Below are positions 231 through 18,030 of a stretch of 64,000 bases of DNA, one piece after another. The position numbers and the translations under genes are program-made. This DNA is from Chlorobiota bacterium (GTDB taxonomy: Bacteria > Bacteroidota > Bacteroidia > Bacteroidales > VadinHA17). Position 1 is the stretch's first letter. Each line of letters opens with the position of its first letter. The notes under the pieces are model-generated. The model did not search any database and had not been told where the DNA came from. It saw nothing but the letters and a program-made list of their open reading frames with translations. Location: positions 1 through 64,000 of the forward strand of contig JAADHC010000036.1 in NCBI GenBank assembly GCA_013152085.1, written 5' to 3'.

Positions 231-265
231 TCAATAAAACAGGAAAACAAATTAATAATATAAAA

Positions 266-3200
266 ATGCGTTATTTATGGTTATTGACTTTGGTTTCGGT
301 CTGCACAATCAGTTCCCTGTCGGGCCAGGTACGTATTTACAGGGAACCGCTTACTCTGCCTACATACAGGGTGCTGCAACCTGAAATCATGCCTGACTGG
401 GATGCCAGGCGTTATCCCTATCCAATGCTTGACAGGATAACCAATGAAAAATATAACAAGACCTAGACCTATCATGCTCTTTGGATTGAAAATAAATATA
501 TAAAAGCCCTTGTGCTGCCCGAGATCGGGGGCCGTCTCCACGGAGCACAGGACAAAACCAACGGATACCAGTTCCTGTATGACCAGAAGGTGATCAAACC
601 GGGACTGATCGGGCTCACCGGTGCCTGGATTTCAGGAGGTGTGGAGTGGAATTTTCCGGATGGGCACAGACCCAGTGGTTTCAGGGATACCGATTGGAAA
701 CTGGTGGAAAACCCGGACAGTTCCAAAACGATCTGGGTAGGTGAAATTGACCGTATCACCGGGATGCGCTGGTCTGTCGGTATAACTCTACACCCGGGTC
801 GCAACTGGGTGGAAACCAAGGTCCGGCTTTTTAACTGTACTCCTTTAGTACACCGTTTTCAATACTGGGCTACAAGTGCAGTCCGGGCCACATATAACTA
901 CCAGGCTGTTATTCCCGGTGAGTTAATGACGGGTCATGGAAAGCACGAGTTTTTTCACTGGCCGGTGAATAATGGAGTTGATCTGTCCTATTGGAAGAAT
1001 ATCCCGAAAGCCTCCAGCTTTTTTGCCGTGGAGTCTGAATCGGACTATTTTGGCGGATACAGCCCTGAAGAACAAGCAGGCATGGTACATGTGGCTGACC
1101 ATTATATCGTGCGTGGAAAGAAACTCTGGACCTGGGGAACAGCTCCGGCCGGCCGTCTTTGGGAAAAGATTCTCACTGACGGTGATTTGCCTTATTTTGA
1201 ACCGCAAGCCGGTGGTTATTCGGATAACCAACCGGACCTGCACTGGATAATGCCCGGCGAAACCAAAGTATTCAGCCACTTCTGGTTCCCCACACGGGAT
1301 ATTGGCGTATTTGATTATGCCAACCTGGAAGGTTCGCTGAACCTTGATTTGAAGAAAGGAAAAGCTCTTTTCGGATGGTCTCCTACCGGAGTGAACAAGA
1401 ATGCTGTAGTCATCATGACCTATGGCAACAGGGAAATATTCAGGCACACTGTGGATGCGGATCCGGCAACTCCATTTCTTGGCGAAGCCAAAGTCCGGGG
1501 TAATGCTGATATTTATCAACTCAGGATGACCGTTCTTTCATCAACAGGAGATACCCTGCTAACTTTCCGGCATCCGGTTCCGACCAATCCTCCCCTGCCT
1601 GAGCCGGCCCCTCCATTACCTGCTCCGGATGAGATTGATTCACAAGACAGTTTGTTTGTAATAGGAGAACACTTTAACAAGTTTCATGATCCGGAACGTG
1701 CAAAACTCTATTACCGGGAAGCATTGGAAAGGGACAACGGCGATTTGCGTTCGAATACGGCCCTCGGTGAAATGTTTCTCAAAGATGGTCTTTTTTCCAG
1801 AGCTCTGGAATTTTTCAACAGATCTATCGAACGGGATCCTGCCTTCTACAAGGCATGGTATTTCAAAGGCCTGACCCAACTCTGGTTGGGAGACATTAAA
1901 GGGGCTGAAAAAAGCCTAAACAGGTCAAGCTACAGCCTGGCCTGGTATGCAGCAGCTCATCTCGAATTGGCACAGCTTGCCGCTTCACAGAATAAATGGT
2001 CAAGCGCCTTAGAGCATATCGAACGCAGTATCCACGGTAATGGTGATAACTCCCGGGCATATGCTGTCAAAGCACTTATCCTGAACAGACTTGGGAGGTA
2101 TGATGAAGCTTTGGAGACAGTAACATCAATTCAGAGTATCGATCCGCTTGACTTTTTTTCCCTTGCACAACGGCTGATGACATTGAAAAAATCAGGAACC
2201 GGGGAGGAAGAAATAAATAGGGCGGAAAAAGCCTTGCTGGAACTTACCCGCCGTGACAGCGAAAATCACATTGAACTGGCATTACGCTTTGCCCGTTGCG
2301 GAAGCTTTAAAGAAGCTGCTTATATACTTAACATGCTTACCGGAGAATCAGGAACAACAACAGTGTCGCCGTTGGTCTATTATTACCAGGCATATTATAT
2401 GCACCTGACAGGAGATGAGAATGGTTCTGATGCATTGCGCCGGAAGGCCTCAGAAGTCAGTGCAAAGTACTGTTTTCCAAATCGCCTGGAGAGCTTTCCC
2501 GTACTTAAATGGGCGCTTACCCGGGATCCGCTGGACGCCCGGGCACATTACCTGTTAGGAAACCTTCTTAAAAGCCGGTCACGTTCTGCCGAAGCAGTAT
2601 CACAGTGGGAAAAATCGGTGGTATTGAATCCTTTGAATGCCGTAGCTTACAGAAACCTCGGTTTGATCTATCACGAAGAAGGTAAACTCCAGAAAGCAAA
2701 GGAAGCCTATATGGCTGCCCTGAAAGCCAATCCTGCGGCAGGTTTGGTAATTGTAGAACTCGGACGGCTCAACCGGGAATTAAAGATCCCGTATGAAAAG
2801 CAGATAGCATTCTTTGAGAATAACATCAACACAGTTTCCCGATATAATCAGGCGCTTACACAGTTGATTGAACTATACGTGCTGACACACGATTATAAAA
2901 ATGCGCTAAAATGGTTGACTACACACCATTTCAAGTCATGGGAAGGCCGGTATGGCATTCACCAGTACTGGATACAAAGCAATATAAAACAGGGAGATAT
3001 TGAATTCGAAAACGTACATTATAAGAAAGCTCTCGGGTATTACAGGCTTTCGGTTACTTATCCGGATAATCTTGAAGTAGCCGAGCAACCGAATACGATC
3101 CATGCAAGAAAGTATTTCAAGATCGCCACGGCACTGGAAGCCATGGGAGAAAAGGAATCTGCACATAAATATTACATACAGATAGCAGCTGATAAAATTG

Positions 3201-3520
3201 AAGCAGGGAATGCATATCAGTTCTATCGCGGCCAGGCACTGGAGGCCCTCGGAAAAAAGAAACAGGCAATAGCTGTATATGAGCAGATGCTTGCCGCTCT
3301 GGATAAACAGGAAGCACAGCAAAAGCATATTGAACTGCAAGGAATGATTAATGAAGATATTCGCACGAACAGAGCAAAAGCTTTACAACTTTTTTGCCGC
3401 TCTCTGGCCCTGAAAGGACTGGGAAAAACAGTTGAATCGGAAAAAGTGCGTAAAGCAGCTCTGGAACTCGACCCACTGGTACCTTTAAATGCATTTAAGT
3501 CTCCCGGGGCCGGGTGGTAG
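266..3520 (+). pseudogene. DUF5107 and TPR-repeat secreted protein, interrupted by an in-frame TAG
   Basis: Two pieces lie in the same frame: ATG 266 to TAG 464-466, then on to TAG 3518-3520. Together they would encode about 1,084 residues. The N-terminus is a signal peptide (hydrophobic run ending SSLSGQ). It is followed by a DUF5107 region (YPYPMLDRIT, then VLPEIGGRLHGA and GAWISGGVEWNF) to about residue 380. From about residue 420 come many TPR helices rich in A, L and Y (for example AVAYRNLGLIYHEEGKLQKA). DUF5107/TPR proteins are common in Bacteroidota glycan loci but have no assigned reaction. The stop lies inside the conserved segment NKT-TYHALWIENKY and was produced by a 6-bp tandem duplication at 459-470. 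Removing one copy restores the expected sequence. A GTG at 512 could start the larger piece, but it would lack a signal peptide and the start of the domain. It is either a recent null allele or a reversible one. Confidence 0.88.
459..470 (+). repeat. Perfect 6-bp tandem duplication (AGACCT twice) creating an in-frame stop
   Basis: AGACCT at 459-464 is repeated exactly at 465-470. The frame AAG ACC TAT becomes AAG ACC TAG ACC TAT, so a TAG appears without a frameshift. This is the pattern expected from a slipped-strand or short tandem duplication event. Confidence 0.95.
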
Positions 3521-3648
3521 GTATTCTGTTAAATTGTAAAAACCATAAAAAGAAATGTTACCTGGGGTCAGTTTACAATAACTATTGGAAATGCTAAAGA
3601 CTAATAATTGCTCCTTAAGAAAATTATAATCAATTAAAACAAAAACAT

Positions 3649-17650: not shown

Positions 17651-18030
17651 GAACCTTTTTTCATCAATCCATAAACGCTTTCTTTAATCGTTTATGTATT
17701 ACCGGTTTGCTTGTAACTTGTTACTTCAGTGAATAGTACACATTATTTCCTTATAGTGAGTTTAGGTGTTGTTTATTCGTTTTTATTTGAATCTGTTTTC
17801 CTTATTCCGGAGGTATCTGTTGCCGACATTAATGAAAACAAATATTTTTTTCAACATCTTCCGGCATTATTTTTCTATCTGGTTCGTTAAACAAATCAAC
17901 CTATTTAAATAGGTATTTAAATAGGTTGATTAGATATTATAACTTCTTGTTACTTAGTTGAATATAAAATAAGACTGAATCTTTAACTCGTTAAACACCG
18001 TGTATGTTCTTCCAATAAAGGTTATCTGAA
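17651..18030. other. 380-bp non-coding gap between convergent genes
   Basis: I see no gene here on either strand. It holds the hairpin at 17894-17931 and a weaker one (CATAAACG at 17670-17677 pairing with CGTTTATG at 17689-17696, 11-base loop, no U-tract). Confidence 0.6.
17894..17931. terminator. Long perfect hairpin between convergent genes, possible bidirectional terminator
   Basis: AATCAACCTATTTAAATA (17894-17911) pairs perfectly with 17914-17931, leaving a 2-base spacer: an 18-bp stem. The core is also a 12-bp tandem repeat (TATTTAAATAGG at 17902-17913 and 17914-17925), and CCTATTTAAATAGG is itself a palindrome. It lies between convergent stops at 17650 and 18031. No strong U-tract follows it, so terminator activity is inferred from position. 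Confidence 0.55.

Follow-up and report, generated by a model that had tools for sequence, protein, structure and literature searches.

The stretch of 64,000 nucleotides analysed here, called the window in what follows, carries near its first base a long gene whose frame, spanning 266 to 3520, is interrupted by a single TAG, which lies within a short perfect tandem duplication. The question raised by this locus is whether that TAG ends translation and leaves a dead gene, or whether it is decoded, bypassed, switched by repeat slippage or produced by assembly.

A stop codon at the junction of two repeats

The sequence AGACCT is found twice, without mismatch, on the forward strand at 459-464 and 465-470, the period of six bases extending over a run from 459 to 471. 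Read from the ATG at 266, the codons are AAG ACC TAG ACC TAT, and the TAG (464-466) spans the junction of the copies at codon 67; it is the sole inner stop of the frame 266-3520. Which copy is the extra one is indistinguishable, and no second copy is present in the relatives compared at the DNA level. Since units of six bases preserve the frame, the junction stop alone matters. An earlier note on this DNA had described an AGACCT tandem creating an in-frame TAG, and both copies and the stop are indeed present.

The tandem is not a statistical anomaly by itself: the window contains 23 perfect 6-bp tandems, against a mean of 17.8 expected from 40 second-order Markov sequences (range 5-27). This particular 12-mer occurs once in the window against a mean of 0.01 in shuffles, a value to be read with the fact that the 12-mer was picked post hoc, after it had been sighted. 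In the same survey, a perfect 12-bp tandem (25-bp run) was observed between listed ORFs at 17902-17926, with a period that was absent from the 40 simulated sequences.

The interrupted gene and its two remaining frames

When the TAG is read through, the frame (266-3520, forward strand; 1,085 positions with the inner TAG) encodes a protein matching PF17128 (DUF5107) with an E-value of 8.6e-60 and a score of 202.7 bits for a curated cut-off of 24.4, together with several TPR models, and its N-terminus looks by eye like a signal peptide. The domain order and the profile match are shared with the DUF5107 (PF17128) and TPR proteins and with 5cd6, the sole solved relative found, which corresponds to the first part of the protein, whereas the window copy is interrupted at codon 67. 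NCBIfam provided no name for the protein, the 16 families matched at an E-value of 0.001 being all of the TPR type and each below its own curated cut-off. Frame reading and profile search show what the stop leaves on the forward strand: a short ORF of 66 amino acids at 266-466, with no Pfam match at 0.001, and an ORF of 1,002 amino acids at 512-3520, opened by the next in-frame start (GTG), in which the N-terminus is missing and the DUF5107 match starts at profile position 39, not 6. Elsewhere in the same genome, the scoring of 12 of 15 first-look candidates gave one further match, to the TPR part only, and no strong DUF5107/TPR match other than the window gene was obtained.

A derived insertion in a constrained gene

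Comparison with relatives, which the earlier note had proposed as a check, shows that the insertion is derived. At the protein level, all of the 48 distinct homologues are without two residues within query residues 60-74, the gap falling on residues 67-68 in 34 of them and being placed a few residues upstream by the aligner in 14. The count was made from 55 loci, including 7 repeats, and leaves out L014 and L023-L031 (N-terminal coverage absent or doubtful, mostly TPR-only) as well as the matches without a fetched locus. At the DNA level, the six bases are missing in the three nearest homologues, found in G033 (L003, the same as L032, 83% amino-acid identity), in G049 (L004, 64%) and on JAFGTO010000436.1 (L033, 57%). 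It is this comparison, and not the repeat statistics, that leads us to consider the tandem as the product of a real event. The 3.3-kb contig JAFGTO010000436.1 is titled as a Candidatus Glassbacteria MAG, and its homologue may represent either a cross-phylum transfer or a binning error.

The reading frame of the G033 orthologue, which is the nearest one, is open throughout, and over the 1,082 codons compared the duplication is the sole indel and no second inner stop is present in the window gene. The two genes differ by a dS of 0.77 and a dN of 0.095, corresponding to a dN/dS of 0.12. A single indel together with this ratio indicates a gene that has long been under constraint and is without visible decay, and the presence of only one lesion despite a dS of 0.77 indicates a lesion that is young when set against the divergence from G033. 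The flanks of the repeat, that is the rest of the gene, are therefore as intact as the earlier note had supposed, and its description of the event as recent is borne out on the scale of this divergence; the event would presumably be recent in generations as well. Among the single-base codon differences that could be polarised, the window side carries 29 nonsynonymous and 40 synonymous ones and the G033 side 16 and 38, respectively (Fisher p = 0.19), 52 nonsynonymous and 198 synonymous differences being not assignable. Counted as amino-acid changes, 29 fall on the window side and 17 on the orthologue side, with 17 assignable to neither. This excess on the window side could lean to an older relaxation of constraint, and it is not significant.

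Inner stops in the family and in the genome

In the order to which the bacterium belongs, 62 of 393 genomes (its own included) match the first 478 residues of the protein at 1e-60, with 72 matches in all, and six matches besides the window gene were listed with an inner stop. These do not point to an inner stop as a family-wide feature: in G037, G315, G256 and G245 the Met start of the protein comes no more than three codons past the stop, and in G140 the stop was inferred to lie upstream, the aligned protein starting one residue past the listed match start. The remaining one, in G200 (L120, C11), is another truly broken DUF5107 gene, in which an inner TGA is followed by a frame change. True breakage by an in-frame stop thus concerns 1 of the 71 other matches over residues 1-478.

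Within the genome, a scan for split genes based on a hexamer coding score placed the stop at 464 at the top of the 175 candidate split points obtained from 289,720 bases (the window and 12 further stretches); the coding model was trained on 104 long ORFs of these bases, among them the downstream part of the window gene itself, which biases the score in its favour. The overall runner-up, with an ATG two codons past the stop, has the appearance of a normal following gene. None of the 12 sulfatase matches and none of the 16 TonB-barrel matches of the same genome contains an inner stop, and split genes look rare in this genome.

A probable recent null or nearly null allele

Taken together, these data are best explained by a recent slippage duplication that has turned the DUF5107/TPR gene into an allele that is null or close to null, a reading to which we give a probability of about 0.78. 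Most likely, replication slippage with one base of microhomology (the run being of 13 bases) duplicated six bases and so placed a TAG across the copy junction, 66 codons past the start. Translation would end at this TAG with the release of a 66-amino-acid peptide, and a restart at the GTG at 512 would give a product devoid of the likely export signal and of the first part of DUF5107. Since this restart product lacks both the export signal and the domain start, the allele is expected to be null or nearly so. The function of the gene would probably be lost in the cells that carry it, as judged from the truncation and because the only other match in the genome, among the 12 of 15 candidates scored, covers the TPR part. 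The locus has in common with young pseudogenes and nonsense alleles a perfect tandem missing in relatives, a single lesion and an otherwise intact remainder. It does not differ from them in kind, the stop being here made at a copy junction without frameshift. Among the readings put forward in the earlier note, that of an inactive allele is the one that fits best. As such, a broken gene is of small importance beyond the annotation of this genome.

Alternative explanations

Several other hypotheses could account for the TAG. That this organism decodes it as an amino acid would agree with a frame that is open on both sides of it, but 39 tRNAs were found in the genome and none has the anticodon CUA, UCA or UUA (the set is incomplete, tRNA-Ile with GAT for example being not found, and a missed suppressor is therefore not strictly excluded). 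Against it are also the presence of the RF1 gene prfA, which scores over its cut-off, and the TAG that terminates 7 of the 42 listed ORFs of the window, the window gene's own end included, in a list drawn up mechanically, with at least one overlapping ORF that is spurious. In the 290-kb sample of the split scan, the next TAG candidate reached 0.13 against 0.36 for the window gene and is followed by an ATG 16 codons later, and the TAG considered here sits in an insertion missing from the homologues. Recoding is accordingly very unlikely, and the TAG in all likelihood serves as an ordinary stop. The hypothesis that the assembled form is wrong, either through an assembly or consensus artefact or as a minority allele rare in the population, is rather unlikely. 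It would be favoured by the state of the assembly (3,377,794 bases in 75 contigs), by the origin of the nearest orthologue in a MAG record and, for an artefact or a mixed population alike, by the position of the stop 464 bases, and of the whole site less than 470 bases, from the contig start. Against this, window positions 300-1200 and 1-260 were each found once in the assembly, with no second copy or alternative contig of the locus, and the listed contamination is 0.04. De Bruijn assembly with k-mers longer than 12, a method that may or may not apply to this genome, normally does not invent a perfect 6-bp duplication. The assembled allele is presumably the main form in the population. The second reading of the earlier note, a phase-variable contingency site at which slippage changes the AGACCT copy number and toggles the gene, is improbable. 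An exact tandem is able to contract as well as to expand, and short tandem repeats inside genes do support phase variation, as described for icaC of Staphylococcus aureus in excerpts of PMC4117637, where variants with 4, 5 or 6 tetranucleotide units are reported. The window has in common with icaC, as presented there, a repeat within the coding sequence that switches the gene off, but it has two six-base units, no repeat in the relatives compared and no change of frame. Two units are, moreover, common in this window and fall short of a multi-unit tract, no tandem is seen at the site in the three nearest homologues at the DNA level, and the extra unit is found in 0 of 48 homologues at the protein level, in a set of relatives holding no genome of the same genus, strains being the proper test. 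The part of this reading that concerns a reversible switch thus finds little in its favour. In short-term changes of Bacteroides fragilis, according to excerpts of PMC11379459, premature stops are over-represented (28/325) and adaptive reversion is argued; an adaptive, revertible null allele without a dedicated switch is accordingly possible.

The remaining hypothesis considers the stop as leaky. The TAG lies between two identical Thr codons (ACC-TAG-ACC, 461-469, forward strand), a feature on which the earlier note is silent, and a peptidyl-tRNA-Thr placed on the ACC before the UAG could hop six bases onto the second ACC and produce some full-length protein. A tRNA-Thr with the anticodon GGT is present in the genome, and the codons around the stop are matched as such a hop needs. 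This layout is, however, forced by the geometry of the duplication and is therefore no sign of selection: when the 3,240 possible 6-bp duplications of the intact orthologue were simulated, 70 made a stop and all 70 placed it between identical codons, as compared with 0 of 62 stop-making duplications of 3 bp, 1 of 74 of 9 bp and 1 of 70 of 12 bp. No RNA structure beyond that of shuffled sequences was detected at the site (z-scores of -0.41 and -1.14), and the layout is not conserved, being missing in 48 of 48 homologues. In excerpts of the 2016 review PMC5009743, the stop hop appears as a synthetic layout (Weiss et al. 1987, cited therein) giving a product two residues shorter than that of readthrough, and no natural in-frame stop hop is said to be known; it is also mentioned there that a hop of 29 bases had been reported in a Prevotella loescheii adhesin gene, with no follow-up. 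Efficient bypassing in gene 60 of phage T4, on the other hand, needs a nascent-peptide signal and stem-loops. The window shares with these systems a take-off codon with the stop right behind it and a landing codon of the same sequence, but its landing codon stands six bases on and not past a 50-base gap as in gene 60, and no stem-loop stimulators are evident. In the sources returned by our literature search, partly in excerpt, we found no account of this gene or of an established natural in-frame stop hop, which is not proof of absence. We consider the leaky stop to be highly improbable, and give the same slender chance to its wider form, a natural in-frame stop hop in which the duplication brings its own translational remedy and a dead-looking gene still yields a protein of the length usual in its family. 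If the hop took place, its product would have that length, and the 6-bp duplications that make a stop, unlike those of 3, 9 or 12 bp, would form a leaky class of nonsense mutations, some six-base 'pseudogenes' being then not fully dead. The rule that a stop-making 6-bp duplication sets the stop between identical codons lends itself to inexpensive testing, which would tell if a recognisable group of seemingly dead genes leaks.

Genomic context

The null or nearly null allele favoured here is located at the very beginning of its contig, the window starting at the first base of C46 (74,982 bases) and leaving only 261 bases of upstream sequence. The genome is probably of Bacteroidota, as judged from the SusC/SusD-like pair in the window and from the Bacteroidetes MAG record that contains the nearest orthologue. 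Window positions 262-3540 are 82% similar at the DNA level to positions 1865-5135 of L032 in G033, which belongs to the same family and to another genus. The match extends only a few bases beyond the gene at either end, the flanks being without DNA match (for the upstream flank, over only 261 bases), and the one other protein-level match to this G033 contig is weak (29-33%) and distant, at 54.2-54.8 kb. The protein identity of 83% exceeds that of release factor 1 between the same two genomes (79%), and the other matches in the same family at an E-value of 1e-60 or better have 26-38% identity. Since the similarity is confined to the gene and is higher than that of release factor 1 and of the other family matches, the DUF5107/TPR gene may be passed from genome to genome on its own. 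Three contigs of near-equal size (C2-C4, 37.8 kb) were also considered as a possible duplicated element, and were rejected in the absence of mutual similarity in the first 20 kb of each. Downstream of the gene, between 3649 and 48742, genes for carbohydrate- and sulfate-ester-acting enzymes are abundant, with two SASA esterases, three DUF4832 proteins and a melibiase-like protein, and the same interval contains a TonB receptor with a SusD-like partner (a SusC/SusD-like pair) and heparinase-like, sulfatase, ROK and SIS proteins.
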